Under the pieces are notes generated by a model. The model ran no database searches, was not told where the DNA came from, and saw only the letters and a list, made by a program, of their open reading frames with translations. A DNA stretch of 64,000 bases, taken from Pochonia chlamydosporia 170 (lineage: Eukaryota > Ascomycota > Sordariomycetes > Hypocreales > Clavicipitaceae). This document shows, one piece after another, positions 27,849 through 49,253 of the stretch (the first letter of the stretch is position 1; the number at the start of each line of letters is the position of its first letter). The stretch is taken from contig NC_035792.1 of NCBI RefSeq assembly GCF_001653235.2, positions 4,526,001 through 4,590,000 of the forward strand, written 5' to 3'. The position numbers and the translations under genes are program-made.

Positions 27849-28640
27849 TCAGGTGTCGGTTACCCTTTTAACGCATCTTCTTGGAATCTCATACCCATTG
27901 ATTCCCTTCGGATTTGTCGTAGGATATTCCACCCGCATGTCCATTGCGCAGATTATATGCTGCCGGAGGTAATCAAAACAATGCCTAATGTGGTGAATGC
28001 CCGCCTCTTTTGGCTCTTTATCCATGTCGCCAAGCAGTGCATGTATCGAGGTCGAATTGTGTATAGTCGTCTCGTACGCTGTGTGAATCATTTCCTACCA
28101 GAACCAGATCAGACAAGAGGTATTTTGAGGAAAACAAAAGAGGTAATAAAAAAGGCCAATCGCTCTTGAATACTCGTACCAGACAATGGTATTGATGAGT
28201 CCAAGCGGTGCCATATTGATTGGCTTTCCCATCGACTTGCACACCCGGCGGAAGTCTGTATTCTTCTGCGTTGTCTATGAATATTAGGCCCTCGAACGGC
28301 GGATAGTCCTTCTTCGTGTCCCATACATCTGCTACAGACATGTCCCGATTGTATTCTTCCTTGAAGGACCGAATTTCGTATTCGACTGGTGTAAGGTCAG
28401 TAAATAAATGAGTTTAGTGAGTCGGAATGACTGACTGGAGGGAAAAGGGTTTGGAAACTCTAATGTCGACGTTCTGGATCTCAACAATACGTAGATGAGA
28501 ACAAGCGCACCGACATTCAGTACAGTGAAAAAGGCGACGACTCGACGATGCCGTGGCAGATTTTGCGTCTTTGGCGTGTTGGAATGAGGTAGAAAGGACT
28601 CTTCCTCTTCAAGAGCAACATTTTTGAGACTGTCTGTCAT
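27849..28640 (-). CDS. UstYa-family (DUF3328) oxidase-like protein A
   Basis: Three exons on the minus strand: 28640-28436, 28385-28180 and 28094-27849, 218 residues. A short cytoplasmic N-terminus (MTDSLKNVALEEEESFLPHS) leads into one transmembrane helix (about 34-53) and then a lumenal domain. Two copies of the family hallmark HxxHC are present: HQYHC at 132-136 and HIRHC at 172-176, the latter followed by FDYLRQHIICAMDM. UstYa-type proteins are needed for oxidative ring closure in ustiloxin, asperipin, phomopsin and victorin biosynthesis, probably with copper bound by the His/Cys motifs. The intron after HCL is at the same place in paralogues B, C and D. The first intron uses the GTCAGT donor. 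Confidence 0.9.
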
Positions 28641-29341
28641 GTTGGACAGAGTTTGAAGCAACTGTGCAAAGACGACTTGGAGAGTAATGGCAAAGGGCCG
28701 CCTACACAATGGCTCTGTAAGATTTGGTGAGAAAGGCGGAAAACCATTGACGGGAACCGACTATAGCGACTAGGTGTAAAGTCAAGTCAAACCCCGAACT
28801 ATTTGTTTTACGGAGGGTCTCCATGTATCCACGGCTTGGCGAGTACACATAGCTAGTGGACGGCAGGGTGCCTTCGGACAGAGTGTTCTAGTACCCATTG
28901 TACACAATACTTACGTCCTTAGAGGAAGGGAACACTGAAGAGCCAACAAGATAAGCGAACTGCAGGACACCACATGAACCAGCCGGCTCTTGTACTTTGG
29001 AGACTTGCATGGTGGCCACGTCAATAGTTCAGACTTCCGGCCGAACATGTCCGTCACTCAGCTTTCAACATCTACCAGTCTCTCTAGTTACAATAAATTG
29101 AAGTTTTAGATCAGGTCACTGGCAGAGTGACACTACAACTGTGTATGTTTATTGAGATTAGGCCGTTGTGCTTAATTACACGGCCCAATTCGAACCAAAT
29201 ACGACTGGACGTACGTTACATGCAGTTTACTCGATTATAACTGACACGCTGCCTTCTCTCCGACTGTGCTAATAGAAAGAAGGCTTCGCAACTTCCACTG
29301 CCCAAGTAATTTTACGGGACAGTTTGGAGACGCTCAGTCTC
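28641..29341. other. Intergenic between UstYa-like genes A and B
   Basis: No coding region is supported. It is the promoter of gene A and the 3' end of gene B. Confidence 0.55.
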
Positions 29342-30430
29342 TCATCCAAGGATTCCCTTTAAACTATGCTTCGCCCTGTGATCCAACGTCCAATGAACCA
29401 TTTCATTCCAATCCTTGCATTGATGCTCAACACCCCAGCCATCCGTCGTCTCACGCTTGCCTCCAAGCGGTGGCTCTCGAGCATGCTCGATTGTCATATC
29501 TCCAGCACACATGATTGACTGCCGCAGGTAGTCGAAGCAGTGCTCTACATGGTCTGGAATGGGATCCTGAACCTCGTGCTCTCTATCTCTGCCACCACCA
29601 TGATGGCCGCCATGCCCATTTGGATGATGCTCTTTGTGCGAATCTTCTAGCTGACGTTTATGAAAATGGGCTGTTCGGTTGCCAAAAGATACCATTTCGT
29701 AAAAGAGGAGGCGGATCATTCCCTGTATTTGAGTCAGCCCCAAACCCCTCGATTCTTTTGACAGAGGCTTGTTTCAGATGGGACTTGCCAGACAATGGAT
29801 TTGATGGTATAGGGCCACAGAGTAACGGTCTGGACCTTCGTCAGTGCTGATTCCTGGCTTGAGACCATATTTTTCGGCGGCAGGTACAAGGACATAGCCA
29901 TGACCATCTGGCGCAGCTTCAGCGACCGCGAACTTGGAACGAAAATGAACATAAGGACATGATCCAACATGGCGTACCTGGAATTAAGCTGTCCCAGGCA
30001 GCATTGCTCTCCTCAGATGGAGGACTGGAAAACAGTTCATCTAAGCCGAATACTACGCTATGCGTCTTGACTATACGTAGTTTAGCATTCTCTCCCATTG
30101 CTGTTAACCTTGCGTAAATATTCGCAACTCACCAGCAGGAACAAATGATTCCGGTTTCTTGGCCACATCCTTCAAGAGATGTCGGGATCCAAAGACGGCT
30201 GCAAGCGGAACTACGACCAAGATAAGGCCGATGAAGAGCCAAGTTCTTTTTCGTGATGTTTGGGCTGGTGGGAGTCTGTCCAGCCCTTTGGTATCATCGA
30301 GCTGTTCCTCTGAGTCGTTACTTGATACAGCATAGTAACAAGACTGTTGCTTGGAGGGCGAGGAAAATAATGTGCCGCGAAGGTAGCTTCCGATCATATT
30401 GAAACGTTGAAGAGTTTGTAAACTCTTCAT
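29342..30430 (-). CDS. UstYa-family (DUF3328) oxidase-like protein B
   Basis: Four exons on the minus strand: 30430-30133, 30070-29978, 29907-29789 and 29722-29342, 296 residues. A second in-frame ATG at 30397 would give 285. One transmembrane helix at about 63-81. Conserved blocks follow: an AWDSLIP block, then DGHGYVLVP and YHQIHCL (HxxHC, 165-169), then HVEHC at 228-232 with FDYLRQSIMCAGDM. A His/Gly-rich insert (201-213) precedes the second motif and is absent in A, C and D. The third intron (29788-29723) begins with GCAAGT, so it is a GC-AG intron. The family role is as in gene A; the two are about 0.7 kb apart and point the same way. Confidence 0.9.
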
Positions 30431-31985
30431 GATTTGTAAAATATGAGGAGGGGAGGTTTGTGAGGGTGGGAAGGTCTTAGACCCTGAGATAAAGACCTTG
30501 GGGCCCCGGGGAAGATAGTGATGCGAAGTGTCTGTCTTTGGTCAAGCTCGAAGTGCAGCTTGAAGTGCCCAACTTTGGTCAAGAGTCGCTCTGACAAACT
30601 GTTCTCACCGTGGAAGCGATTTGCGTCCTCGGGATTTACCCATTTAGAACAGTACTTACAGTTTTATGCGCCTGCTATAGATCCACATTGATGCTTTGGC
30701 CTGAGAATAGGAAACCTTTTAGGAAAGTGAATGTAACTGGTGTGGATGCTCGGCATATAGTTGCCAACACCAGAGTACAGGTCTAAGTGTCGTTTGATCT
30801 AGACTTGCTAGACAAGACATCCGTATCACTATCTATTGCATTAGAAGTGGAGCATCGTAAGCTATTGATTGCGTCTCTTTCCAGTGAGCATTCATGTAGC
30901 ATCACATTGGTTGTCATGGGTATGTTTACGGGACTGATCCGGCACAAACCTCCGTAAAATATACGGAACTTTTGACAAATCCAAGAACACATTGCATTTT
31001 GATGCAAGTTTCTTGTTGGCTCACAGCAGTAAATGCGCCAAGAATGTTGCATTGCAGATTGCTGATCATTTAGCGTATTTCTCAGCTAGACAGGTGATGA
31101 GACTGCATCCAGAACCTCGTCGAGTTGTCCTTGCGTTACGCCAACTGTCTTGCCTGTCAATCACTTATCATGTGCTCGTTTTCTTCACATGAGCTCGTTT
31201 GAAGCCTTTTAGTAACCAGGTATTTCTGAATTGGGAATGAGCCGAGTGGAAGTAACGCTGTTATCTCACTTCTACCTGAGACATCGCGGCTTCTGAGAGA
31301 GTCGTTGAGCGGGCTTCATGGCAGTTGTTCAAGCATTTCTCCAAGTACGTTAGTCATCTTCTTAGTATTTTATCCAACTCGGCTCAATTTGAAGAAAGTT
31401 TGGCGTTATACATGTATATTTTCTTCCTAAAATAAAGTCAATGTAAAGACTTTACTGCCCCAATATGAGGAACCAGTATACATGACGCATATGGACATAT
31501 ACCAAAACGCAGTTAATCCATTTGCTCGGCATAGTGTCCACCTCGTTAGTAGGGTGTGCGACTAGTATACTTTCATCCAATGTACTTGCAGTCAAAGATA
31601 GAACAACGGCACGATCCCAGGGTTACATCAGGGTTTCAAATAAGCATATCGTGTGGGGATCCGGGTGCAGGAGGTGAGAATTTAGTGCCTGGGATCCGGT
31701 GTGGTTCAGATCTGAAGGATTCGCTTGACATTGGTGGCCAATAAATCTTGCTGCAGGATCTCGATTGGGAAAATACCGAGACAAGGTTTCTGTGCGTGGC
31801 AGACTTCAGACCCAGGCCCCGGACCCCGGACCCTAGATATCGCCGGGTGATGGACTGGCAAACTCACTTGTGCGATTTGCGGAGAAAATTGACAGAAGGA
31901 CTGTTGCCATGGCTGCCGGTGTGTGTTCGTTGCGTTCAATATCTCCAACTCCAACTTCCCATCTCCAGTATGTTTGCAAAGCAGG
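30431..31985. other. Intergenic, divergent promoters of UstYa-like genes B and C
   Basis: A 1.55-kb region between divergently transcribed cluster genes. I see no supportable coding region or small precursor-like gene here. Confidence 0.55.
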
Positions 31986-33046
31986 ATGGCGTGTCACACT
32001 GCCATGATGGACGAACAACACAGCAGACTTCTTAGTTCAGAGTCATTACCCAACGACGAAACTCTTCATATTTGGGACAAACATGAGGTCGCAAAACGGA
32101 AGCGTACCCAACGACTTCACATCGGGCTGTTGTACTTTGCAAATGTTCTTCTCATGACGGCAGTCATTGTACTGTGTATAAGCAAGGATAATTGCCAGGA
32201 CCCAAGCCTCAAAACATATTGTAGGTCGTTCTTGGTCCTCATGTGGTTATAGAGTTCTCACCAATGTCAACAGCCCCGGCAAACACGGCTGTCGAGTATG
32301 AAGAAATTGTCTTTCACGATATGCCAGGAGAGTGGTCGCCATACTTTGGAAAGCCTACGGATGAAAAGGACGAACTTTGGGATCAATTGTACACAGGTAA
32401 AGTCTTTGCACATAACCCTGCGCCAGTAGTGGCCTCGCTAACATAAACATGTGGGAACAGGAACAGGTATTTTGAGGTTCACGCCAGAGGAAACGAAGAA
32501 AATGCCAAATGAGACGGTTGCAATTCCAGGTCCGGATGGCGATGGCGGAATATATGATCTTGAGGTGTTTCATGAACTTCACTGCTTGGTAAGACTGACT
32601 CTCTGCGAGTGGCCCGTAACAACAAGAAGGGATCAAGTTTTGGTGTTGATTTGCTAGCCAGAATGCTATGAGAAAGACTCTTTTTCCAGAGCGATATCCT
32701 GGTTTCGCTCTGTACCATCCAAACGGCACAAAAGACGACTTTATCGAGATTCATCATAGTACGTCTCACCGGTACTTATCGTCAAGCCTGTTCTGCGATA
32801 AAATAAGTATGCTAATTGACAGTAGGCCATTGCATTGACCGTTTGCGACAAGGCGTCCAATGCGCGGGGAACATAGGAGCCAATTATTATTATTGGAACA
32901 CTGACGCGAATAAATGGATGGTGAATATGCAATCTACACATACGTGTCGCAAGTTCGAAACATTACAGAAGTGGGCGCGGTCTAGAGACTTTACAAAGTG
33001 GGATCCCAAAGTGAGAAGTCATAGTACAGAGAGAATTGGAGGTTAG
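31986..33046 (+). CDS. UstYa-family (DUF3328) oxidase-like protein C
   Basis: Five exons on the plus strand: 31986-32220, 32274-32396, 32461-32588, 32662-32758 and 32823-33046, 268 residues. A basic patch (AKRKRTQR) precedes one transmembrane helix (about 45-65). Family blocks are SPANTAVEYE, ELWDQLY, FHELHC (first HxxHC, 157-161) and HIGHC (194-198) followed by IDRLRQGVQCAGNI. The acceptor of intron 2 is a six-base tandem (CAGGAACAG), so two isoforms differing by two residues are possible. The only UstYa-like gene here on the plus strand, it converges on gene D with less than 190 nt between stop codons. Confidence 0.88.
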
Positions 33047-33234
33047 GCAACATGTAAAGCAATACGTAGACACAAATCCGTGCTTCTTTCTTTTCTTTTA
33101 TAGCTTAGATCTGGCCGAGGAGGCTTACTGTACGAATAAGACTCTAATGTGAAATTCCATTTGTTGTGAGCGAGAGATCTCTATTGTCATGATTCAGGAA
33201 ACTCAAAGAATGTTTTGCCTGCCACCAACTCGAC

Positions 33235-34394
33235 TCAACTCATGGGAAAGTCGGCAGTTCGTGCACCGCACCCGTCTTGGACACCCTCCTGACAATGGAA
33301 GCAGCATGCTTCTCGGCTTTTTCCAAAATGGCTACAGGATCTCGACATCGGTGCTACTCCCGAGTTAGACACACGGCATTCAGGAAGCTAGGGTGAGACA
33401 TGTACGTCTTCACTCACTATTGTGCTAAAGTCAGGGTATGGCGCAGGACCGACATCTCTAACCCAATGAAACATGATCAACCCCATGTCACCGTTACACA
33501 TCAATACTTGGCGCAGAATATCGATGCAGTGGTCCGTATGTCTCCGCAGTGAGCTTGCGCGGTCGAATGTCCAGGCATGGTCTCTGGTCTTGTAATAGTC
33601 GACATGCGTCCATTTCCGGAGCATATTCTTGTTATTGCACTCGGGTTAGTAAAGCTTGGTATTCATCTCCGTCTCCTGGATGAGAAACTAGGAGCTGCTT
33701 GTGGAAGGGAAGAAGATACCAAACAATGGAGCTGATGGAACATTTCCAAGGTCGCCATTCCGCCGCCGCCATTCTCCTTGCCGAGATCAGCGACTGTGGC
33801 AGTAGATACGACATTGCCCGATTCCCTCATTTCCTGCTCTGTCGCAGCAAGTACTATTGAGGTGCCGTCGATCCATTCTGAAAGAATTAGTTAGTGGCCG
33901 TTGACAAATCGAAGAGTCAGGTGAGGTACACAAACTGTTGTGTGTGAAGCGGTTCCAGGCCTCATCCAGTTCATCACTCGGCGGGCCCATGAACACGTTG
34001 GTTGCATTGATCGACCCGTCGAAACGATGCCAGTGGCGAGGGGCAAGGCTTCTTGCGGGGCCTGCATGAAGGAAATTTCTGGTTAGCTTGAATTGTTGAA
34101 GTTGAGGTTCCATGCATGTATGGGTGTTGGTTTGTCAAGTGTGTGCTCACCCCAAGCTAAGTCGGACTCTACACATGGGCGACCAGTGCCAATGTAGTAT
34201 CTGGTCAGAATGATGCCAAGAAAAAAGGCAACAAGGACTGATCCAGACCATATCAGAGATAGCAAGAGCAAACTTGGTGTAATTTGCTTGTGCGGCGAAT
34301 GTTGTTCCCAGCTGTCGCGGTCCCTCACTTCAAACGATGGAGAGCGAGGTTGATGGACCTTTTGGTAAGGGCTTTTCTTGAAGATGGAGAACAT
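33235..34394 (-). CDS. UstYa-family (DUF3328) oxidase-like protein D
   Basis: Five exons on the minus strand: 34394-34151, 34061-33936, 33877-33720, 33627-33418 and 33354-33235, 285 residues. One transmembrane helix (about 41-63) follows a basic/polar tail. Family blocks are PPSDELDEAWNRF, FHQLHC (171-175) and HTDHC (206-210) followed by IDILRQVLMCNGDM, and then a Cys-bearing C-terminal stretch (HRCRDPVAILEKAEK). The HCL/NMLRKW splice junction has a TACTAAC branch point. Together with A-C it gives four divergent UstYa-type proteins, as in clusters that make several crosslinks. Confidence 0.9.
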
Positions 34395-34980
34395 AGTATG
34401 GCCTCGAGACTTCTTTCGTGAGGTGACAAATGATCGAATCGGGTAAGAACAGAAAAGAATTTTGTTGATCTGAGAATGTAAGCCAGAGCTCTCCCGGCGC
34501 TGTCGATGTGGATGTAGGAGAGATGGTCTACATGCCACCCGAGGGACGGGACACTTTCAAAGATGTCTCGAGTCTCGGTTCTAGATTTGAGGTCAGCACT
34601 TGGCCAAGTTGAGCCCAGAAACACCAACGGCATGTGCCAATGGGCCAAGTCGGTCTGCATTTCCAACAGACACCCATCCTACCTCGTTGCTTTTTCCTTG
34701 ACATGAATATACGTATTTGGGCAAACTTGCCCCCAAATGTCTCTTTAGACCAGATAGTGATTCCCCACGAGGTTCATGGCAGGCTATGGCAATCCAAAGC
34801 CATTCCATGTACGATTTTATCCGGTCTATTCCACATGCAGCGCTTAGCTCACCGCCCCCTACATGTACTTACACGTAGAAGCGACAATACATCACATGCA
34901 TACATATGCCTATCCCAACGTGCCGTCTCAGCCTTTGAGTTACCAGGCACCTTGGCTTGTTTCCTCGTTCTCTGCTTCTG
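34395..34980. promoter_or_regulatory. Divergent promoter between UstYa-like gene D and the amine oxidase gene
   Basis: About 590 nt between two divergent genes of the cluster, likely containing both promoters. No other gene is supported. Confidence 0.5.
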
Positions 34981-36963
34981 ATGGCATTCAAACTCCTCTT
35001 TGGCCGCTTGCTTGGCCTGCTCACCGTCTTGAAAGCATTTGCTTCTGCGGACAGGGTGCCTTCGGCCGTAGAGAGTCGTAGTAAGGACGTCAATGCAACA
35101 TACTTACCAACCAAAGCCCCATATGTCAACATCTTTGCCCACCTCTCGGACGAGGAGGATGAAGCTGTACGGTTGTTCCTGAACACAACTTCAAGCACCT
35201 TAGGGTAAGAAACCAATCTCAAATCCGTCTCAGGCCGAAACTGATTAGAATAGCGTCGGAAACTTCACCAAAATATGGTCACTCAACACACTTCCACCGA
35301 ACAAAACCGTGGCGGTAGCCTATCTAGATGGCAAAACGCCGCAACCACCGCGGTACGCTCAAGCGACACTCAGATTCGAGTGCTACATTCAAGAATGGAT
35401 GATTGGGCCTCTTCCCATTAGCAATGAGACATTAGCCAGGCCATTGGACTACATGTACAATGGGAACGCTACGATGGAGTTTCCAAACTGTGTGCAGCGC
35501 GAACCGTTCGAGGGTTTGACCAGCCCTAACGAGACTGTCGAATGGAATGGGCAAACGTTGCCTCACGATGATCTGACGGCTCCGATTGCTGTGGCTCCTG
35601 ACGGGGCGAGATATGAGTTTGATCCTGTGCAGAACTACATTTCATGGAGTACGTGTGTTTCCTGACTCCCAACTCTCTACCTCAACACTCATTTGGCATG
35701 TTCAACCACAGCTAATATAATCCAGTGGATTTCTCATTTCTTGCTGCCCTCAGCCATACCGGCGTCGGTCTTTATGACATCCGTTTCAAGGGCCAAAGGA
35801 TCGTATACGAGGTCGTGCTCCAGGAAGCCATGTCTCACTACGCAGGTATTGATCAGCTGGCGTCTGAAACAGTGTATCTGGACACAATGCTCAAATGGAA
35901 GCCCGGGAAGCTCGTACCAGGTTTCGATTGCCCTAGCTACGCCACTTACACCGATCTTTTCTGCCTGTTCGAATACCCAAAAGATTTCCCTCTCCAGAGA
36001 CACACTGAGGGCTACTACCACGTCACCAAGAACATTGCATTTTTGGTGCGCAGCGTCGTAACAATTGGAAATTACGACTATCAAATAACCTTTGAGTTCG
36101 GACTGGACGGTTCGATTCAAGTCCTTGCGAGAGCGAGTGGCTATATAGCCTGGGCGCCGTGGAATGACACGGCCGAAGATGCAGCGTACGGTTTCAAGAT
36201 CCGCGACGACTGGTCGGGAGCTATGCATGACCATGTATTGAACTTTAAGCTCGATCTTGATGTCAATGGCTCAACAAACAGTCTTTACAAGACTGAGTTT
36301 AAGCCATACAAGCGGAAAGTTCCATGGTCAAACAGCACAATCAACACCATGAAGCTTGAGCGTAGCATCATCATGAATGAAAACCAGGGACAGATAGACT
36401 GGGCGCCAAACTCAGCTGCAACGTATGCTGTGGTCAACTGCGACATACCAAATCAATACGGAGAGTGTCCAGGATGGAAGATCTATCCATCAACAGGCGC
36501 CAGCATTTCTCTCACGGTTCAGAATTCGACGATGCTAGGTAAAGCCGGGCACTGGGCCACTCATCCACTCTTCGCAGTAAAGCGCAAGGACTCGGAGCAA
36601 ACAGCTTCCTACATGTGGAACTACTATAACATCCAGCAACCGCTGGTGGATTTCAGCACCTTCTTTGACGGAGAGTCGCTTGATCGGGAGGATATTGTTT
36701 TGTATTTCAACTTGGGAATGCACCATCTTCCTGATACTTTTGACATGCCTAATACTTTGTTCAGCGGAGCGCAGTCTGGTATTACTATCAGGCCACAGAA
36801 CTATGGCAACTCTAATCCTTCGTTGGCGACAAAGCAGATGGTTCACGTAGCAGAGGATGGGAAGAGTGTAAAGTACTATGGGCAGAAGATGGCATCAGGG
36901 ACACTTAACTTGGACGCGACAAATCCTGACTTGTCGAGAGGTTTTTTACGGGCTGAGAGGTAA
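34981..36963 (+). CDS. Copper amine oxidase (topaquinone enzyme), secretory
   Basis: Three exons: 34981-35204, 35254-35648 and 35726-36963, 618 residues. The first 22 or so residues (MAFKLLFGRLLGLLTVLKAF) look like a signal peptide. The enzyme deaminates primary amines to aldehydes with H2O2 release. Motifs seen: the cofactor-forming Tyr in TIGNYDY (Y323), likely catalytic Asp in YLD (D259), two copper His in MHDHVLNFKLDLDVNG (H374 and H376) and the third in LGMHHLPDTFDMPNT (H539 or H540). The sequence is closest in style to animal diamine-oxidase-type enzymes (PGFDCPSYATY). In the victorin RiPP cluster a copper amine oxidase (VicK) modifies the peptide; its position in this cluster suggests the same kind of role. 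The exon junctions fit well. Confidence 0.9.
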
Positions 36964-38529
36964 ACTCTAACTACTTTCACATAGATATTATACCTTGTAA
37001 AGCCTTTTGTGAAGCATTGGGTGGCCTCAGAGAAGCCACAGTATTGTGTCATGGCCAACAGATAATGAATCAGATATCCAAGCACATGAACAATGCTCAC
37101 CATACGAGAAAGCTCTAAACATGTCAAGGTGCATCAATGAAGAACTGAAACATTACTGGCCCGGTATTTCTGATGAATGTGCTGAGCTAGTACCGAAAGC
37201 AATGAATGTCTTATCTGATACCTGAGACCCTCGTGCAAACAAAGACTCGGTCCAGACTACTATCGGGTCTCAAAACGCCCGTGGTTGTGATCGTCAACCA
37301 GTGTTGCTGCCAAGGCCAGCTTGACACCACGATAACCTTCAACTTCCTATTATGGAAGTAACCGAAATCTGTGTGATGAAGACTTGCAGGTCTAGAATCT
37401 CTCTGCATTCTGCATTTTGGTGTTGTCCTTCCATGGGCCAAGTCTCTGGCCGCCAACACTCTGCGATGGAAGCGGCAAGATATCCCGGTGAGACATCGCA
37501 GGTGGCTATTTGACGGGATGGAATACACTAATGCCCGGTCGGCAGCTCTACAGGGTTTAATGATTGATCCAGCAGGATTTACAGTATGGTGCCATCGTTG
37601 ATCTAACCCGCGCCTCCCCGCGCGGCACATTTGCCGAACCACCCAGAATAGGCAAATGCCGCGAAACACCTAGACTCGCGATTATTCTGATTACTTGGCA
37701 TTTTCTGAGACTCGGCTACATCTGTGAAGTGACTAGCACAAGACAATAAAATGCTGCAGTATGACACACCGCCGGGAAGTCGAGCATTCGCGGCTTGGTC
37801 GTTGCCGCAAGGGCAGGAGAGAATCAATAGTATTCCGACTATGGTTAGTTCGTACTCGGCAGAAGCGGGCAAGCTGCAGGTCTAATATAGCTCGTTCATG
37901 CATCTTCATGTAAAGCCTGTTGGTACATTGACGACTTGTACCTCGTCTTGCCGGCTGGTATATACACCCCCTGGCTCAAAATCACCAACTCACTTCCATA
38001 GGGAGCCTCACTAGAGATAGAGTGACAGTTTCCGAAGATGAGAGATTTGTCATACCTGAAGATGCGTAGTGTACCTGTTCCAATCTAGTCTCGCCCCCAT
38101 CATCCGTTCATTCTCGGGTGCGCAGCGCACCATCCACACATGTAGATAGTACACCATCTGCATCAACATCCTCCTAACCCATCACCGCAGATGATGGCTA
38201 TCAGAACCAACGCTGAACACGTTGCGCATCATTAGAAACTACCCAAAACGCAATATGGCAAGGGACGACCAACCACATCACAAGCTTGGCACCAGTGGTC
38301 GACTTTCCGCGAAAGAGGCAGACATTCCCAGCAAGCTTTAGAAACGTCCCCTGCTTTCGTGTGCACCCACAGCCCGAGAACGAAAAAAAGTGACTTACGA
38401 CACTCAGGTATAAAGACCGTGTATCCTATGTCAACTCAAGTACACCCCCCGAGAATAGCCATCTTTCTCATCAGACTCATTTTTTATCTAAAAGGGAAAA
38501 TATCATTCTGTTTCAACTTACTTCCAAAG
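36964..38529. other. Intergenic upstream of the RiPP precursor gene
   Basis: About 1.6 kb with no supportable gene. Frames of up to 152 codons on the minus strand lack domain features. The right end is the precursor promoter. Confidence 0.55.
38409..38414 (+). promoter_or_regulatory. TATA box of the RiPP precursor gene
   Basis: TATAAA lies about 120 nt before the precursor ATG at 38530. This is in keeping with strong expression of a peptide precursor. Confidence 0.55.
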
Positions 38530-38993
38530 ATGCCTTCTCTTTCCAAGATTGTCATCCTTCTCGCGGCAGTTCAGCCCCTGTTGGCTGCTCCCGTTCTCGA
38601 TACTTCTGTCCAGCCACGGGTATGACCGCTTCCTTCCCATGTCCTTTGATATAAAAGCTAAAGGTGTACTTGAAGGATGCTGTCCAGAATGACGTTGATG
38701 CCGCCAAGCTGCGCAGCTACTGGCCCCGGAACGAGAATGATGTTGATGCTGCCAAGCTTCGGACCTACTGGCCGCGCGAAGCAAACGATGTTGACGCCGC
38801 CAAACTTCGCAGCTATTGGCCTCGTGACGTGAATGATGTCGATGCGGCCAAACTCCGAAGTTACTGGCCTCGTGAAGCAAACGACGTCGACGCTGCCAAA
38901 CTTCGGAGTTACTGGCCTCGTGACGGTAATGATGTTGATGCCGCTAAACTTCGCAGCTACTGGCCGCGTGAGGACGCTGAGGCCGAGAAATAA
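38530..38993 (+). CDS. Repeat-containing secreted RiPP precursor peptide
   Basis: Two exons: 38530-38619 and 38688-38993, 131 residues; acceptors at 38664 or 38676 are also in frame and would add a few residues. Residues 1-20 (MPSLSKIVILLAAVQPLLA) form a signal peptide, followed by APVLDTSVQPR. Six tandem 16-residue units follow, NDVDAAKLR[S/T]YWPR plus two variable residues (NE, EA, DV, EA, DG, ED), and then AEAEK. This architecture (signal, tandem cores, protease sites) is that of the dikaritin precursors such as UstA and PhomA. There is no KR or RR site; the Pro-Arg ending each unit is an accepted Kex2 site. Tyr and Trp (and Lys) in each unit are candidates for crosslinking. It lies between the amine oxidase and the S41 peptidase. 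The exact core boundaries are unknown. Confidence 0.88.
38688..38975 (+). repeat. Six 48-nt coding repeats in the precursor gene
   Basis: Units start at 38688, 38736, 38784, 38832, 38880 and 38928. They encode the same 14-residue core with one conservative change (Ser/Thr), while third codon positions differ. Units 1 and 6, for instance, differ at six synonymous sites and no replacement site over the 14 codons. Confidence 0.93.
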
Positions 38994-39520: not shown

Positions 39521-41875
39521 ATGCATTTCAAAATCATCGTCACAATTTTAATACGGGCTGCCCAAAGTTTAGGCGAGCCATGCGCCGAAGTATCAGCATC
39601 ATGGGCAGCCCAAGCCACTGCGCCCTTCACCCGCGACTACAGAGCTCAAGTCCCAGCTCGACTCGCAATCGACTGTCTCACGTCTGTGCCTGTCGATGTT
39701 GAAGGCGACATCAAAGAAATTGAAGAGCTGAAGAATTTCCTACAATTCCAATCGACGCTCAGCTACTTGAAAGAAGGTCACTACGCCAACATCCCAGAAG
39801 AAGTGCACAACCAGCCTCTAGACCTGCTTAGCCGATTAGACGACGTAGCAGAGTCGATCAGAAATAGAACATTTAAAGACGAGTTCGCCGTGCAGCTTGC
39901 TATCCACAACTTATTCAGGCAGAGCGGTGACTTCCACCTTCGCTTTCGACCAGACATGCAGGAGATTTTCCTCTTTGTCAGACCTGAAAGCAAGCTGGTC
40001 TCGTTATCTGAGGATGGAGTAGCATTGCCACAGCTCTATCTTCTGTCGGACTTGGAGAGGGATACAAAAATTTCGTATTCTGCTCTGAAGACGATCAACG
40101 GAGAGGACGCGAGCCAGTATCTTGAGAGGTTATGGACGCACAATGTGTATCATGATGCGGACGCTCGATACAATAGCTTCTTTCCTAATCCAGCGGCTCA
40201 GGCTCTGGGTATGGATAGTGGTGGGCAATTCTATCTCACGCAGGGGCTGTATGATGGCCCGACAACCGAGTTCAAGTTTGTCAATGGCTCGCACGTAGTC
40301 AGGGAGAATGTTGCCATGATTCGTGAGTTTGTCAACTTCTCGGGTGTGAGGGACGGACCATCCTTTTTTGCCAAGTTTTGTCAAGGGAAAATGGGGAGAC
40401 AAGTCAGGGAGACAAGAATCGAGCCATCGAAAAGGTCGAATACAAACACAAGTTCAACATCGTTCCCAATGCCAAAGGGATATCCCCAGCCACTTATCTC
40501 ACAGAGCGGGCTCGCAATTCAGGGCTATCATCTCAACAGCACTAAATATCATGATGTTGCTGTTCTCGCTGTGCCCAGCTTTCAGCCAATTGCAGCCGCA
40601 AAAGATGGAAGAAGTGGCAAAATCAGTGGCTTTCTTGAAGCTCAAAACGTCATCAAGGAGTTTATTGCACAATCAGCACGGGATATGAGAACCAAGCTTA
40701 TCGTTGATTTGCGCGGAAACAGTGGCGGAACAATTGACATGGCATTTGAGTTATTCAAGCAGCTCTTCCCTGGTATTGAACCGTTTGGAGCTTCTAGATC
40801 TCGAGCACATGAAGCTTTTCGACTTTATAGCTCATCGGTTGCCGATCTGGTCAACAATAGGACTCCGACGGTGGTGAATTCACAACTGTACACAGACATG
40901 GCAGGTAGCACGGCGAATGTTGTAGCAAACCTCCTCAATGTCCAAGGGACGCGGTTCAAGGACTTTAAAACATATTACGGTCCATACACCGCCAACAAGG
41001 ACGAATTCACCGCGGCACAAAGATACAACTTTTCCAACCACTTTGGCGGGCATCCACTGGCGCCGTACGTCAACCTCAGCGGCTACGACGAGCACTCCTC
41101 GGCGCGACCACTTCGACTTGATCCTCCGTTCCGCCCTGAGAATATAGTCATACTACAGGACGGGTTTTGCGGATCTGCGTGTGCGATGTTTGCCCAGCTC
41201 ATGGGCGAGCAGGGACACGTACAGACAATTGCGGTTGGTGGTCGGCCTCGAAATGCGCCAATGCAAGGTATAGGCGGGACGAAAGGAGCGCAACTTCTCA
41301 CATTTGACTCGATAATTCGACACATGAGGACGACGGAGGAGATGGTCAAGTTGATGTACGGGGTTCAAGCTGCCATGAACCTAGTTCAGACAACAGCAGT
41401 TGGGAAACTGTTGAATACATCGCAGTTGTATCTTCGTTCGGCGCACTCCAATCCTGATGAGCGGTTGAATGGCGCTGTCAACTCTCTCGATAACTTGAGG
41501 CAAGGCGATGGGAGTAACACACCACTTGAGTTTGTGTACGAGGCAGCGGACTGTCGATTGTTTTACACTAAAGAATCCTTCTTTAATCCGGTTCGACTGT
41601 GGGAGATGTCTGCCACCGTGAAGTGGGGGAATGGAAATGGTGACGGTGATGATGATGATGATGGGAACCGCATGGTAGATTGTGTCGAAGGGAGCATGGG
41701 GCATGCAACGGCCGCAGGTGTCAAGAGGGATGTACCATTTAGTGTGCGAAAGAGAATGGCATGGGATGATAGGATGCAATTCTGGGGCATGGTGTTAATC
41801 GTTGGTACGGCGTGCTTCATGCTGCTGAGTGTCGTTGTGCAGCAGGATTGGCGTTTGCGTTGGCGACGAAGATGA
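39521..41875 (+). CDS. S41-family serine peptidase (UstP-like), membrane-anchored
   Basis: Single exon, 784 residues from the ATG at 39521. A signal peptide (MHFKIIVTILIRAAQS) and one C-terminal hydrophobic helix (FWGMVLIVGTACFMLLSVVV) indicate a lumenal or extracellular enzyme tethered to the membrane. The S41 core has LIVDLRGNSGGTIDMAF and GFCGSACAMFAQLMGE, with Ser552 as the expected nucleophile. In ustiloxin and phomopsin clusters an S41 peptidase (UstP/PhomP) processes the precursor. Its place directly downstream of the precursor, on the same strand, supports that role here. An Asp/Gly run before the C-terminal helix is a likely flexible linker. Confidence 0.87.
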   Translation: MHFKIIVTILIRAAQSLGEPCAEVSASWAAQATAPFTRDYRAQVPARLAIDCLTSVPVDVEGDIKEIEELKNFLQFQSTLSYLKEGHYANIPEEVHNQPLDLLSRLDDVAESIRNRTFKDEFAVQLAIHNLFRQSGDFHLRFRPDMQEIFLFVRPESKLVSLSEDGVALPQLYLLSDLERDTKISYSALKTINGEDASQYLERLWTHNVYHDADARYNSFFPNPAAQALGMDSGGQFYLTQGLYDGPTTEFKFVNGSHVVRENVAMIREFVNFSGVRDGPSFFAKFCQGKMGRQVRETRIEPSKRSNTNTSSTSFPMPKGYPQPLISQSGLAIQGYHLNSTKYHDVAVLAVPSFQPIAAAKDGRSGKISGFLEAQNVIKEFIAQSARDMRTKLIVDLRGNSGGTIDMAFELFKQLFPGIEPFGASRSRAHEAFRLYSSSVADLVNNRTPTVVNSQLYTDMAGSTANVVANLLNVQGTRFKDFKTYYGPYTANKDEFTAAQRYNFSNHFGGHPLAPYVNLSGYDEHSSARPLRLDPPFRPENIVILQDGFCGSACAMFAQLMGEQGHVQTIAVGGRPRNAPMQGIGGTKGAQLLTFDSIIRHMRTTEEMVKLMYGVQAAMNLVQTTAVGKLLNTSQLYLRSAHSNPDERLNGAVNSLDNLRQGDGSNTPLEFVYEAADCRLFYTKESFFNPVRLWEMSATVKWGNGNGDGDDDDDGNRMVDCVEGSMGHATAAGVKRDVPFSVRKRMAWDDRMQFWGMVLIVGTACFMLLSVVVQQDWRLRWRRR

Positions 41876-42360
41876 AGCCAGGATGAGTCTGGTCTGCCAC
41901 TTTAGGTTAGAAGTCATGTTGTGTAGAAAGGCGAGTAGGGTAGACCAGTTTACCCTCTTACTTGATCAACCCGAGAACATTTGATTGCTCACTGCAACTA
42001 AGCCTCGGTGCAACGTTGAAACGCTGTTGGACCGACGGTCAGACACGGCATCTCTGCCAAGACATCTCGACTCTCACGGCCTAGCTTGAATGCGCGTTTG
42101 GTACATCTCCGGTCATGCTGCTCATGAATGTCAAGTATATTTGGGTCTGTGCTGTCCATCATATAAATACGTGGGTTGCTCCTTCCCTTTTCTGCACCAA
42201 GGTCCTCCATCCGTCTACATGAACACCCCATCGCCAACTGCACTCAAGTGCTCTCTCTGTATTGCAACCTAGCAACACCACACTAAATAAATACGATCCA
42301 TTTGCACTTCTTAGACCCTGTTTTGATTCAGGCCAAAAATACATTCACAAAAAGAAGAAA
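41876..42360. promoter_or_regulatory. Intergenic with TATA box of the reductase gene
   Basis: About 485 nt. TATAAAT lies at 42162-42168, roughly 200 nt before the ATG at 42361. No gene is supported. Confidence 0.45.
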
Positions 42361-43285
42361 ATGCCAACCAAGCTAACTACAACATCCACCGTCCCTCTTC
42401 AAAACTCGGATACCCGAATGCCCGTCGTCGGCTTCGGCGTCTACCAGATCGACCGACCAGCCACCACAGACGCATGCCTGCGCGCCATATCCGCCGGATA
42501 CCGTTACATTGACACAGCACAGATCTATCAAAATGAGGCAGAGGTAGGTCTTGCGCTACAGCAATGCGATCTACCTCGTAAAGACATCTTTGTCACCACC
42601 AAGATCCGCTATCCCCGCCTTGGCAAAGGCAAGACCTACCTTCGGGCGCTGCAGAGCGTCCAAAAGATTGACCCCCGTGAAGATGGATACGTGGATCTGT
42701 TTCTCATTCACTCGCCGTATGCGTTGAAGCCTAAAGAACGAAAAGAATTATGGCTGGCGCTGGAGAAGTTGTGGAAGGATGGGAAGGCTAGGGCCATTGG
42801 GGTAAGCAATTATCAGCCTGAGCATTTGGAGGAGATGAGGGGGTATGCGACCGTCTGGCCGCCTGCTGTCAATCAGATTGTTGTAAGTCGCCATTTTACA
42901 CTCCATGTTTGTTCGCATCTTGCTTTCGAAGTGGTGGTAGCTACTAAAGAATATTGTGTGCTAGCTTCATCCCTGCACACAACAGCGTGAGACAGTAGAC
43001 TACTGCAATAAGCATGGCATAGTTCTCCAGGCACATAGTCCGCTATCTAGAGGATTGAAGGCGCAGGAGGACGCAGTTGTCAAAATCGCGGGCAAAGTTG
43101 GTGGAAAGTCGCCTGCGCAGGTGCTGATCCGGTACTGCTTGCAGAAGGGTTGGGTGCCACTGACCAAGAGTGAGAATGAAGCGCGGGTCAAGGAGAATAT
43201 AGACGTTTTTGACTTTGTACTCTCAAAGGAAGATATGGCGTCGCTGGACCGACTTGATCGTGGGGAAGCGCCAAAGTTTGAGTAA
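42361..43285 (+). CDS. Aldo-keto reductase
   Basis: Two exons: 42361-42882 and 42965-43285, 280 residues. The intron has a GTAAGT donor, a TACTAAAG branch and a CTAG acceptor and rejoins NQIV to LHPCTQQRE. The catalytic tetrad is intact: Asp51 and Tyr56 in YIDTAQIY, Lys81 in TTKIRY and His117 in FLIHSPY. GVSNYQPEHLEEM and the NADP-site region RVKENIDVFDF are also typical. Such enzymes reduce aldehydes or ketones with NADPH. In this cluster the reductase could act on the aldehyde made by the amine oxidase or on an oxidised side chain; this is inference. Confidence 0.9.
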
Positions 43286-44143
43286 TTTAATCAGCGCCGT
43301 GGGCATAAACTGCTAGGTATATAAAATCCAAGCTGGGAACTTCTCAAATGGTCTTCGTAATAGTCTTAGTATTTACGTAGATATGTGCCATGGTGGAGTC
43401 TTTATCCTCTTATTATTATTCTCTGCTCTTACTAGGAATCCTCTTTACAGCGAGTTCACGATCCGACATTTAGCATGGCATGTTAAGTTGCTTTGTCACA
43501 CATACACTTGGGCTCTGAACGACTCTTTTTGTGTTCTCATGATGATGCGTCCATTTTGATGTCGCGGATGCTTGCTGTTGCTGGCTCTCCTTGTTTACAC
43601 TGATATTTGCTGACAAAAAAAAAAAAAAAAAAAAAAATACGTGATTCGCACACTGCAAGCCAGTCCTAGGTAGTTCAAAATAACCTGCTGGACTTCAAAT
43701 TGCAGAATAGGGTATTCCCATAAATGGCCGTCCACGGACTTAATTGTAACGGCACTTACAGCACGCCCTACTTGGTAACCGTCTCGGTTCTGCTGCAATA
43801 ATAAAAAATGGGACACTCGAGAAGCGTTTGTCAATCTAACTTGGCCTTACACATATTCCACACTAGTTTCACTAAACTCGAATTGCACTCTCATCCCATC
43901 TCATCTCACCACCCCGGCCAGGTTCCCATGAAGCCTCGGTTCCGACGGCACGCTACCACAACAAGCTGACATCAACAAAACGCATCAGCAAGACGCTAGT
44001 GACGCCCCTGAAAAAAGTTCCTTTCCCCGGACACCAATTATTATAAAACGAGACTATCCGCCCTCACGCGACCCCCGCGTTCCTGACTCCTTTTCCCCTT
44101 CCGTATCTCACGTCGCTCATTCACATTCCCACTCCCTCTCACC
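43286..44143. other. Intergenic with poly(A) run and TATA box
   Basis: No gene is supported. There is a run of 22 A at 43616-43637. TATAAA at 44042-44047 lies about 100 nt before the transporter ATG at 44144. Confidence 0.5.
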
Positions 44144-47100
44144 ATGAATGCTTCCACGCCGCTTTGCGCGCCCACCGCAGACGCAGCCTTCGGGCCAGCC
44201 GTCCAAGGATGCCGCAACAGCTTCGACTTCACCCTCGTTTTCGAACAATCCATCTTCGTTATTCTCCCCGCGTCACTCCTCCTGCTAGCCGCGCCCCTCC
44301 GCCTCATCCACCTCGGCAAAGCGCCCCTCGTCGTGGGCGGCCCTCTCCTCCGCAACGCCAAGCTGGTTAGTCCCTCCACCAGCCAAGCACAAAATACAAA
44401 CCTTGTAAGAAATGTGAAGACAGAATTAACACAGCAAAACTCACCAGTCGGTCGCTGGCGTCCTCGCCACCATCCAACTAGCCCTCGTAGCCCTCTGGGC
44501 AACCCGACCGGGACCTGCATCCCGCGTCACTGCCATATCCATAGCTGCTTCGTGTATATCGTGTGCCTCAAGTGTCATGTCGTGTGCCCTGTCGTATGCC
44601 GAACACGGCAAGTCCCTGCGTCCGTCGTCGCTGCTGAATGTGTTTCTGCTCGTATCGCTGCTGCTTGACGCGGCGCTGCTTCGTACGCTTTGGCTCAGTG
44701 AGTTTGTAAACGGCGCTATACAGGCTGTCTTTTCGGCGTCGTTTGCTGTAAAGGCCGCGCTGGTGGTGCTGGAGGCTGTGGAAAAGTCCCGGTTTCTTCT
44801 TGTCCTTGGCATGCCGGCCGGAGACCGAGACCGAGACGCAGACGGAGAAAAAACGGCGCCGGAGGAGACGGCCGGATTGTATGGGCGCGCCGTTTATGCG
44901 TGGGTCACGCCGTTGTTGAGGACCGGATTCCGGCGGCTCTTGGCGGCGGGGGATTTATTTGTCTTGGATGCGGAGATGAGGACGGCGAGATTGGGCGAGC
45001 GGTTTTGGGGCGTGTGGAATACTGGTGAGATTTTTACCCTTTTTTCCTTGTTCGAGTCTTTTCAGAATCGTGCACTGTTTGCTGCACTCTCACTGCTGGT
45101 CTCATCCACTAACACCACCAGCATCCTTTGCCAAATCTCACAAACACCGCCTCATCACAAGCTGCATCATCACACTTCGCTGGCCACTAACAGCCGTCAT
45201 CATCCCACGCCTCGTCCAGCTCGCATTCACAATTTGTCAGCCCCTCGTTCTTAATCGCTTCCTCGTATTTCTCAGCGATGCCCCTGAATCTCCCAACGTG
45301 GGCTACGGGCTTGTCGCCGCCTATGGCCTCGTGTACTTTGGCATCGCCACATCGCAGGCACTCTACTGGCATTCCAACGCGCGCTTCGTCACCATGCTCC
45401 GAGGGACTTTGGTAACGGCTGTATTTTCCAAAGCCACCGAGATAAGCATCACTGCTACGGATAATGCCGCTGCTGTCACGCTCATGTCCACGGATGTAAG
45501 TCATACCCCCAACCTCTCCCACCACTGCGTCTTAACCATGATATAGGTCGAAGTCATTGTACGGGCCATGAGGCAAATTAATGAATTCTGGGCAAACATT
45601 ATACAAATCGCCATTGGAACATGGCTTCTCAGCAACCATATCGGCTACGCGGCCGCTGGTCCCATCATCGTCTCAGCGGTTGCACTGGCCGCTACAATAC
45701 TCGTATCGCCACAGGCTAAGAAATACAGAGTAGGATGGTTGAAAATGACCCAAAAACGAGTCGGTAAGTTCCCTACTCCCCTCAACATCGTTCACTCCTG
45801 ACTCACTACCAGGCATCACGTCCGCTATGATCGGCCACATCAAAAGCATAAAAATGTCCGGCTTATCCCAAAAACTCTCATCCACCATCTCTACCCTGCG
45901 CGTGGAGGAAATCAAAGCATCAAGGCCATTCCGCGTCTTCGGCGCAATCACTTCTGCCATTGCGCAGATTCCGCTCCTGGTGTCTCCGCCCGTCGCATTC
46001 GCCATGTATCAGGGTGTGGTGGCGAGTACGGGCGAACAATTTGACGCGACGAGGCTGTTTTCTTCGCTGTCATTCATCATTTTACTTGCACAGCCGTTGT
46101 TTTGGATGTTTGAGGTTGTGCTTGATTTGAGTGCGGCGTTTGGTGCGTTTGAGAGGATAGAGACGTTTCTGGTGGAGGCTACAAGAGAGGACTATAGATC
46201 TGTTGCTGCGGCACCGAGCCCGTTGACGCCGTGTACGCGTGCTGGTTCGGATATTGAGCTTCAAAGCTTGAGTAATAGTGCTGCTGAGCAGGGTCAGGTT
46301 GAAGGAGACTTGGGTTCAATGCTTGAGGTACAAGACGGTAGTTTTGCTTGGACGGCTGAGAAGACTGCCGTGCATCATGTGCAACTTCGTCTCTCTCGGG
46401 GCCAGTTCGCCATGATTGTCGGACCTGTTGCCTCTGGAAAGACGACCTTACTCAAGGGTCTGTTGGGGGAAGTTCCTCATGTATCTGGCAAGATCTGGCT
46501 TGGATCAAACCGTCTTTCATGGTGTGATCAAAGCCCTTGGATTCTGGTCAGTCCCAAATCATCTGCTTGACGACTCACCATGTTGCTAATACTCATCAGA
46601 ACCAATCTATCCGCCAAAATATTATAGGATACTCTCATTTCAACGAGCCTCTGTACAACCAAGTCATCAAAGCGTGCGATCTACAAAAGGACTTTACTCA
46701 ACTTCCGAACGGTGACTCAACCGTCGTGGGGAGCAAAGGTCTCGCCCTCAGTGGCGGACAGAAACAACGAGTAGTAAGTTTTTGCAGCATCTTTGGAATG
46801 AACACCAACTGACCATCAGGCACTCGCTCGAGCTGTATACTCCAAGCCGGAAATAGCACTTTTCGATGACCTATTTAGCGGCCTGGATAACCAGACTGCG
46901 AAACGAATATTCAGGAACCTCTTCAGCGCAGAGGGGCTGCTTCGACAGTGGCGCTGTACAATCATTCTCGCGACACAATCAGGTATGCCAAGTCATATCG
47001 TTTGTGTAGCGGATCTTGCTAACAACTGCAGTTGGCTTCCTCCCATCCGCAGATCTCATCGTGTCACTTACTCGCAACGGCGCCATCTCCCAAAAGGGAA

Positions 47101-49253
47101 AGTTTTCTCAACTCCAACATGCAGAAGGCTATGTCAAAAGCTTACTGGTTTCTCGGCAAGAATCTACATCCGATGAAGACACAAACGATGACGAAGAGGA
47201 TCTTCCTCCTCGCACAGGCGCTAAACCTGCTACAGTAGCGGCAAAACAAGATGACAAGCGCCGACAGCTAGGTGACTCGACTATATATCGATACTATTTC
47301 AGCAATATTGGTGCTTCGTTCGTCATTGGCCTGCTAGGCTTGGAAGTGGGATGGGCATTTCTGCAAAGTTTCCCGAGTATGTCTCCCCTTACGTGGAAAC
47401 TACAAGACCCCAATACTAACACGTTACAGCTGTTTGGCTCAACTTTTGGACCAACGCCAATAACAGCGGCGAGCACGGCAAGACAGGCTACTACCTGGGC
47501 ATTTACACCGCTTTACAAGTCCTTGGCGTATTCTGGTTCGCCGCCCTCATCTGGTTTGTCCTGGTATCTGTTGCCGCAAGATCAGGCATCTCTCTGCACA
47601 ACCGCCTCCTATCAGCCGTCATCCGGGCGCCATTATCCCTCTTCACAACCACGGATCTCGGATCAATCACCACCAGGTACGAACCCATTTCCACCAAACC
47701 CCCCGTCAGACCAACTAACAGATTCAGATTCTCCCAAGACATAGGCATGGTAGACAACAACCTGCCCCTTGCTCTCGTCGTCTCCCTAGCAAGTAAGTAT
47801 CCTCCCCGTCTTGAAAAAACACCCATCTCACAAGACCAGGCTTCCTCGGCGTCATCGCCAAAGCCGGACTGCTCGCCTCATCATCCTACTACGTAGCCAT
47901 CAGCTTCCCCTTCCTCGGCGCTCTGTACTTCTACCTCCAGCGCGGATATCTCCGCACATCCCGCCAGCTTCGACTCCTGGACCTGGAAGAAAAAGCGCCC
48001 GTGTATTCGCAATTCCTCGAAACGCTAAGCGGCTTGTCTACCCTCCGCGCATTCGGGTGGTCTCAGGCTGCTATACTCAAGAATTACGAACTGGTAGACC
48101 GATCACAGAAGCCGTTCTACCTGCTCATCATGGTGCAGCGGTGGCTCGTTCTCATCCTGGACCTGACGACCGCGGGACTGGCTTTGCTGGTTGTTGGATT
48201 TGCGGTCTATATGAGGGGTTCGGTGTCCGTGGGACTGACGGGCGTTTCGTTGGTCCAGCTTATATCGCTGAGTGAAACGCTGAACTTGTTGATGCAGTTC
48301 TGGACTTCGATGGAGACGTCTCTTGGTGCGGTGGCGCGGATCAAGCAGTTTGCCGAGGAAACGGGGGAGGAGTACCTCCCCGGCGAGGATAAGGAGCCTG
48401 CACCTAGTTGGCCGCAAAATGGACACATTGTAGTTGACAACTTGTCTGCGTCTTATGGTGACGACGGCGAGGTGAGGGCTTTAGATGGTGTTAGTTTGGA
48501 AATTAGCCCTGGTGAAAAGGTCGCCATATGTGGGCGGACAGGAAGGTAAGTGAACATCACGACACGTCCTGGTCGTTGCTAATCTGTACAGTGGAAAATC
48601 ATCACTCCTACTCGCGTTTCTCAAACTCTTGACACCCGCATCCGGCACCATAAGGATCGATTCCCACTCTCTGTCGTCCATACCGCGAGACACCCTGCGC
48701 AGACGCATCATCACCGTCACCCAGGACCAGTTCATCCTCCCGGGAAGTATTCGCGAGAACATCGACCCCTTCCAGGAATATACACCCGCCGATATAATCG
48801 AGGCCCTGCACCAAGTCAACCTCGGGGAGTTCATCGACGCGCAGAAGAACGGGCTGGATACAAAGTTTGAAGAGGACGCGCTGAGCCACGGGCAGAAACA
48901 GCTGTTTTTTGTGGCGAGAGCCGTGTTGAGGAGGCGTGTGGGGAGGGTGGTGCTTCTCGATGAAGCTACGAGCAGGTATGATTTCGTGTTTGACGGGTGG
49001 CGATGAGATGCTAATGATTGGTAGTGTTGATAGGGAGACGGAGGTGATGGTGCGGAGTGTGATTGAGAGTCAGTTTAAGAGTCATACGGTTGTGTCGATT
49101 GCGCATCGGTTGGAGACGGTGGTTGACTATGACAAGGTTGTTGTTTTGGATGAGGGTAAGGTGGTGGAAGTTGGAAAGCCGAGGGATCTTCTTCGCGAAG
49201 CGAGTCGGTTTAAGAGCCTTTGGAATGCTAGTAACCATGAGAGCACTTCTTAG
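44144..49253 (+). CDS. ABCC (MRP-type) ABC exporter
   Basis: Thirteen exons, 1478 residues: 44144-44365, 44448-45024, 45122-45495, 45547-45763, 45813-46546, 46600-46773, 46820-46982, 47032-47376, 47430-47676, 47728-47792, 47840-48545, 48592-48975 and 49025-49253; all phases fit. It has an N-terminal TMD0 (about 1-190), TMD1, NBD1 (Walker A GPVASGKTT, signature LSGGQKQR, Walker B FDDLFSGLD), TMD2 and NBD2 (GRTGSGKSS, signature LSHGQKQL, VVLLDEATSSVD). NBD1 lacks the catalytic Glu after Walker B (Asp-Asp), as usual in ABCC. The family exports organic anions and conjugates. As the last gene of the cluster, on the same strand as the precursor, it is a likely exporter or resistance pump. Confidence 0.93.

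Follow-up and report, generated by a model that had tools for sequence, protein, structure and literature searches.

A probable dikaritin-type RiPP gene cluster with single-arginine repeat junctions and a copper amine oxidase in Pochonia chlamydosporia 170

Does a compact group of nine genes in Pochonia chlamydosporia 170 encode the route to a ribosomally synthesised and post-translationally modified peptide (RiPP), and, if so, how would its precursor be cut and its core modified? The window, i.e. the whole stretch of 64,000 nucleotides analysed here (contig C3, positions 4,526,001-4,590,000, from a 44.2-Mb genome in 49 contigs), carries at 27,849-49,253 four genes for UstYa-family proteins (Y1 to Y4) and one each for a copper amine oxidase (CuAO), a repeat precursor, an S41-family peptidase, an aldo-keto reductase and an ABCC-type exporter (Table 1). 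Taken together, they very probably represent a genuine RiPP cluster of the dikaritin type, the core of which was not met in print, and, judged from sequence, the cluster is probably functional. All nine genes could be modelled as open frames by manual splicing, with 29 introns (28 GT-AG and a single GC-AG, the latter in Y2), and the catalytic motifs sought were present, on which grounds a pseudogene or a remnant cluster was rejected. Pfam matches were obtained for the families of the eight genes other than the precursor, that of the exporter through one ORF (open reading frame) inside its model (ABC_membrane, 46 bits). The spliced models and these matches thus agree with a preliminary description of the locus that had placed the same nine genes there; it had also seen no obviously unrelated gene among them, and no further convincing one was recognised in the gaps by eye, from the ORFs and the sequence.

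The tested traits of dikaritin clusters were found here, namely UstYa genes beside the precursor, tandem core repeats behind a hydrophobic N-terminus, and a tyrosine in the core. UstYa enzymes employ a dicopper site (PMC12186524), and each of the four models contains two HxxHC motifs, scores above the PF11807 cut-off of 25 bits and lies not more than 11 kb from the precursor. The precursor itself begins with a hydrophobic segment (2.42 on the hydrophobicity measure used), its leader ends in SVQPR, and it continues with six NDVDAAKLR[S/T]YWPR units, separated by the dipeptides NE, EA, DV, EA and DG, and an acidic tail, EDAEAEK. Tandem Repeats Finder (TRF) reports the same array with a 48-bp period and 5.9 copies. 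The preliminary description had singled out a repeat containing KLRSYWPR; the repeat is real, the unit being, however, 16 residues long (14 of them constant apart from the S/T position), with KLRSYWPR as its second half. If splicing used another possible intron acceptor, at 38664, the first repeat would be preceded by eight more residues, the repeats being unaltered.

The repeat is under strong constraint. Differences between the units are close to saturation at synonymous sites (pS 0.774), whereas the nonsynonymous value (pN 0.0102) reflects a single S/T change; it should be noted that the 14-residue frame was picked for its constancy, so that pN is lowered by design, the high pS being independent of that choice. 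YWP occurs in all six units, with the tyrosine constant, and neither glycine nor phenylalanine is present in the unit. A chance repeat was rejected from the contrast of pN with pS, and a second copy elsewhere from the genome search, which gave one match, the precursor's own locus. The core had not been recognised in the preliminary description, and indeed neither SYWPR nor such a cluster turned up in the literature searched.

How the precursor would be cut is a question in itself, since no KR, KK, RK or RR pair occurs anywhere in it. Instead, Pro-Arg closes the leader and every repeat. A survey of Kex2-processed repeat proteins (KEPs) defines them, in the excerpt available, by three or more repeats set off by KR, KK, RK or RR sites (PMC7329392), and an earlier repeat-protein survey refers likewise to KR, KK and RR sites (PMC6339444). 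Having no dibasic pair, the present precursor falls outside the former definition, and both surveys, as far as those excerpts define them, would leave it out. It may nevertheless work like a KEP through its Pro-Arg sites: Kex2 tolerates proline at P2 (PMC8528282), so that, by analogy, cleavage at Pro-Arg by a kexin is possible, the S41 peptidase being the other candidate for cutting at single arginines. The kexin-type P domain was found at three places of the genome (C6:2570707, C12:363327 and C15:14482). The C12 and C15 matches score identically and may perhaps belong to a duplicated or twice-assembled stretch.

Relatives were sought for the precursor, the UstYa proteins and CuAO. Among the 8000 scored candidates sharing most words with the precursor, only one strong homologue was found, JN550_013415 (P0001) from Neoarthrinium moseri, with an E value of 2.9e-16 and 75% identity over 63 aligned residues. 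It contains two NDVDAAELRSYWPR units, as opposed to six here, with glutamate in place of the repeat lysine (NDVDAAxLRSYWPR) and a leader ending in QAR instead of QPR; it, too, has no dibasic pair, Ala-Arg standing at the leader and Pro-Arg at the repeats. A further candidate, P0002, an 82-residue ORF with three YWPREGKT stretches, has an E value of 0.37 and was treated as a probable chance match. Searching with a profile of the four UstYa models gave 31 proteins with E values up to 1e-20, only two of which are from N. moseri; these carry the tags directly preceding that of the homologue: JN550_013413 (P0003), a fusion model with a Y2-like part (57% over 247 residues) and a Y1-like part (71% over 97 residues), and JN550_013414 (P0004), which is Y4-like (68% over 273 residues). 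Each of the three is on a contig listed at 77,807 bases. JN550 denotes N. moseri strain CBS 164.80, the genome paper of which cites RiPP-like clusters from antiSMASH and, in the excerpt available, describes none of them (PMC12369201).

The neighbourhood is therefore shared in part, the precursor of N. moseri being tagged next to relatives of three UstYa proteins; a Y3-like protein was not found there among the 31 matches, and for CuAO no row so named was seen among the best 120 of 423 matches (8000 candidates scored), an absence that is only suggestive because of imperfect gene models and many nameless rows. Outside N. moseri, Y1 is 51% identical over 173 residues to P0023 from Xylariaceae sp. 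FL0255 and Y4 60% over 279 residues to P0005 from Lophiostoma, and for Y3 the best of the 31 matches comes from Psilocybe (44% over 167 residues). Where the matches listed for the precursor, Y1, Y2, Y4 and CuAO carry a name, the closest ones all come from ascomycetes (Neoarthrinium, Xylariaceae, Lophiostoma and Discula).

The partly shared neighbourhood bears on an alternative according to which the precursor would yield secreted linear peptides, signal- or effector-like, with the adjacent UstYa genes serving another purpose. Unmodified Kex2-repeat proteins are common, and DUF3328 neighbours were recorded for only 22% of KEP genes in one survey (PMC7329392). The four UstYa genes so near to the precursor, the run of consecutive tags that UstYa relatives form in N. 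moseri and the tyrosine constant in the repeat all speak to the contrary, and we regard this alternative as very unlikely.

With regard to the systems already described, dikaritin clusters typically contain S41 peptidases and UstYa proteins (PMC6514808). The ustiloxin B and phomopsin clusters share with the present one a secreted multi-copy repeat precursor, UstYa proteins and an S41 peptidase; they have, according to the excerpt available, KR junctions, a YxI core, a tyrosinase and a zinc-finger regulator (PMC6514808), whereas here there are single-Arg junctions, a SYWP core and CuAO plus an aldo-keto reductase, with no tyrosinase match nearby. The EDYxI-type core motif of ustiloxin and phomopsin (PMC6339444, in excerpt) does not occur in the unit NDVDAAKLR(S/T)YWPR. 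Asperipin-2a resembles the present case in its repeat precursor, UstYa oxidase, reductase and transporter, with no tyrosinase listed in the same excerpt, and differs in comprising four genes with one UstYa, an isoflavone reductase-type enzyme and the core FYYTGY (PMC6514808), as compared with the four UstYa genes, aldo-keto reductase, CuAO and S41 peptidase found here. Victorin is likewise made from a multi-core precursor, probably processed by kexin and a cluster peptidase, its core being chlorinated and ending in phenylalanine (PMC9233826), a residue missing from the present unit.

Of the preliminary assignment to a cluster "ustiloxin/phomopsin/victorin-like", it is thus the dikaritin type that holds; the subgroup was too specific, no tyrosinase match lying in the window and no zinc-cluster regulator having been found in it among the 146 matches scored of 252 candidates. 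The victorin cluster also includes a CuAO, which forms the glyoxylyl terminus out of the glycine with which the victorin core starts. A CuAO accompanies the precursor and UstYa genes here; with no tyrosinase match nearby, the label "victorin-like" is weak. What sets the cluster apart from the described dikaritins is the single-Arg junctions and the combination of CuAO with an aldo-keto reductase.

As to CuAO, nothing relevant on such an enzyme in any RiPP route was found in the literature searched. Its alignment with 3pgb contains the residue set of an active enzyme: the motifs YLDTM (position 257), TIGNYDY (319), MHDHVLN (373) and GMHHLPDTFDMP (537) provide what we take to be the catalytic aspartate in YLD, the cofactor tyrosine in N-Y-D/E-Y, and the metal-binding HxH with the third histidine. 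Two of the nearest sequences of known structure bear the name lysyl oxidase (1n9e and 1rky). Among the matches listed, the closest are P0034, at 98% for 65% of the query, and a protein from Discula destructiva, at 79% for 57%. A quick tree, built from 121 rows (the window protein and 120 of the 423 matches), contains a branch with an SH-aLRT value of 100, and 47 of the 48 proteins shorter than 680 residues are found to the same side of it; many rows are fragments, so that the shortness results partly from incomplete gene calls, and relatives of 625-649 residues exist as well (P0039, P0041, P0042 and P0044 to P0049).

Lysine in the repeat goes together with CuAO here, and glutamate with no CuAO seen in N. 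moseri, as a lysyl-oxidase role would predict; being limited to two species, this pairing hints that CuAO oxidises the repeat lysine. Alternatively, in the same cluster, CuAO may attack the alpha-amine at the N-terminus of the peptide once this is released, the lysine being part of a discarded leader. The action of the victorin enzyme on an N-terminal glycine is in favour of that option, as is the lack of conservation of the lysine between the two precursors; the repeat unit, however, has no glycine, the nearest sequences of known structure include lysyl oxidases, and the lysine is replaced precisely where no CuAO relative was seen among the matches listed, again in a comparison of two species. 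We regard the alpha-amine as a possible substrate, on balance somewhat doubtful.

Considering all nine genes, we hold it likely, on the basis of their sequences, that they form an intact dikaritin-type RiPP cluster in which the precursor would be cut at single arginines, oxidised by the UstYa proteins, modified further in CuAO and aldo-keto reductase steps and its product exported by the ABCC protein. Several observations weigh against this. The precursor has none of the dibasic sites of the described dikaritin precursors. The N-terminal segment of the S41 peptidase is only weakly hydrophobic (1.26). The aldo-keto reductase, which has the motifs DTAQIY, TTKI and LIHS, presumably in their usual roles, has no hydrophobic leader and should therefore be cytosolic, i.e. 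across the membrane from the secreted enzymes. The five tyrosinase matches of the genome all lie outside the window, the nearest one on the same contig some 3.5 Mb away. No common promoter word was found, the best 6-mer occurring in seven of eight promoter stretches and being equalled in 39 of 100 simulations (best 7-mer 5/8, 39/100 simulations; best 8-mers 3/8, 100/100). Finally, CuAO went unseen in N. moseri, subject to the limits given above.

Some of these points would also suit a cluster that is only partly functional, with CuAO, the aldo-keto reductase or the exporter as mere neighbours of the pathway: the matches listed, from searches made with the precursor, the UstYa proteins and CuAO, showed neither Y3 nor CuAO in N. 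moseri, the reductase has no leader, and the promoters have no word in common. On the other hand, CuAO sits between Y4 and the precursor, 0.6 kb from the former and 1.6 kb from the latter, in a genome with about nine CuAO gene places (18 matches grouped, one place in the cluster), and the space between showed no recognisable unrelated gene. Such a partial cluster appears to us unlikely. It should be added that NCBIfam matched none of the three proteins submitted to it, that the UstYa profile gave four matches to PDB sequences, none of them credible (E values from 0.14 to 0.84), that the S41 peptidase gave no match to PDB sequences, and that no peptide methyltransferase was recognised among the selected ORFs scanned. 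The PF23658 domain of the peptidase has three matches in the genome, one of which is in the cluster.

The route that we infer for an intact cluster from its gene content, open frames and motifs, the repeat constraint, the lack of dibasic sites and the partial neighbourhood in one relative would be as follows. After the precursor has entered the secretory pathway, a kexin tolerating proline at P2, the S41 peptidase, or both would cut behind the single arginines of SVQPR and YWPR, the terminal arginine probably being trimmed. NDVDAA would most likely serve as a recognition segment, and the product would come from the C-terminal part of the unit, with an extent between SYWP and KLRSYWP. The four UstYa proteins, as membrane-anchored copper oxidases, may carry out cross-linking of tyrosine and tryptophan, hydroxylation or desaturation, while CuAO would convert an amine, most likely that of the repeat lysine side chain, into an aldehyde, which the aldo-keto reductase could possibly reduce to an alcohol. 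The ABCC pump would then export the product.

Table 1 Features of the cluster and repeat ORFs at other UstYa loci of the genome
Feature	Sequence	Coordinates	Strand	Details
Y1, UstYa-family oxidase	window	27849..28640	-	218 aa; 3 exons; PF11807 47.4 bits; HxxHC at 132, 172
Y2, UstYa-family oxidase	window	29342..30430	-	299 aa; 4 exons, one GC-AG intron; PF11807 90.2 bits; HxxHC at 168, 231
Y3, UstYa-family oxidase	window	31986..33046	+	268 aa; 5 exons; PF11807 165.1 bits; HxxHC at 157, 194
Y4, UstYa-family oxidase	window	33240..34394	-	283 aa; 5 exons; PF11807 158.6 bits; HxxHC at 171, 206
Copper amine oxidase	window	34981..36963	+	618 aa; 3 exons; N-terminal hydrophobic segment; Cu_amine_oxid 334.8 bits
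Precursor	window	38530..38993	+	131 aa; 2 exons (38530-38619, 38688-38993); six repeat units; TRF
Repeat array	window	38688..38971	+	six units NDVDAAKLR(S/T)YWPR with dipeptide spacers; TRF and spliced model
S41-family peptidase	window	39521..41875	+	784 aa; single exon; CPAF-like PDZ domain; C-terminal hydrophobic segment; PF23658 (PDZ_CPAF_rel) 109.4 bits, PF03572 (Peptidase_S41) 33.7 bits
Aldo-keto reductase	window	42361..43285	+	280 aa; 2 exons; PF00248 (Aldo_ket_red) 160.4 bits
ABCC-type exporter	window	44144..49253	+	1478 aa; 13 exons; Walker A, signature and Walker B sets, twice
Repeat ORF, L018	contig C6	6705-7073 of locus	+	beside UstYa gene; hydrophobic start; four repeats of KY(D/N/A)KYEP type, each closed by one Arg; dibasic pairs absent
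Repeat ORF, L012	contig C10	6815-7102 of locus	+	beside UstYa matches; four DADDLVHNSWSA(R/K) repeats; basic pairs only upstream of repeats
Repeat ORF, L024	contig C2	3037-3291 of locus	-	beside UstYa; GGYGDYPPP-type repeats, period 10; no basic pairs
Repeat ORF, L014		4916-5509 of locus	-	beside UstYa gene; basic pairs
Repeat ORF, L015		6617-6838 of locus	+	beside UstYa gene; basic pairs
Repeat ORF, L016		2937-3125 of locus	-	beside UstYa gene; basic pairs
Repeat ORF, L019		4060-4221 of locus	-	beside UstYa gene; basic pairs

On the left, the cluster is flanked by an ABC-ATPase ORF (24393-26195) and a TRM1 gene (20352-22502), and on the right by an ORF (49326-50657) without a Pfam match; from these flanking genes, the cluster appears to extend from Y1 to the exporter gene. 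Elsewhere in the window, three successive ORFs on the forward strand (8670-11912) comprise a PNP_UDP_1 phosphorylase domain, an NB-ARC-like part recognised by eye and a 126-bp tandem array in 6.6 copies that reads TPR-like, the whole looking like a fungal NLR-type gene. An NDT80/PhoG-type DNA-binding protein (153.8 bits) is encoded at 58338-59864, also on the forward strand.

The question remains whether precursors of this kind occur at other UstYa loci of the genome. The 48 UstYa matches were grouped into 27 places, 26 of them outside the window, which were taken with about 5 kb on each side, their repeat ORFs being read unspliced, as candidates. A protein-repeat scan with a threshold of 0.55, blind to precursors having few repeats or introns inside the repeats, detected a repeat ORF at eight of these 26 loci, compared with none of 104 simulated Markov-1 loci; the precursor of the cluster scores 0.92. 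The same scan gave one match in the rest of the window, the TPR-type gene (10551-11909), and none in 50,001-64,000, so that a repeat ORF alone is no proof of a precursor. By eye, six of the eight look precursor-like, L022 and L028 having been set aside. Basic pairs occur at the repeats in L014, L015 and L019, which, together with L016, seen only at a threshold of 0.50, are ordinary KEP-like candidates, with repeats such as SPDILYNNQAGWGKR and TSADESYLPMKR. Other, weaker matches obtained at 0.50 were left aside. L012, L018 and L024 have no basic pairs within the repeats, and the units of the first two end in a single arginine (the repeat sequence DADDLVHNSWSAR in L012; KYEPLVAR and KYEPLEAR, for example, in L018). 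Single-Arg junctions thus recur in at least two more of the UstYa-linked repeat ORFs in this genome.

It is conceivable, if rather unlikely at present, that both extensions of these results apply together: that a lysyl-oxidase-like CuAO turns the lysine in every repeat into a peptidyl aldehyde, later reduced or ring-closed beside the Tyr/Trp links of the UstYa enzymes, and that a wider class of UstYa precursors cut at single arginines has been missed by dibasic searches. As to the first, the natural Lys/Glu contrast between the two species offers a direct test of the role of CuAO. As the product, a Tyr-Trp peptide scaffold not found in print would be expected, and there is no indication here of its being a toxin. 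As to the second, the published surveys, in the excerpts available, count fungal repeat precursors via dibasic Kex2 sites (PMC7329392, PMC6339444); with single-Arg junctions at the cluster, in its N. moseri relative and at no fewer than two further UstYa loci, peptides modified by UstYa proteins may be more numerous than such counts suggest.

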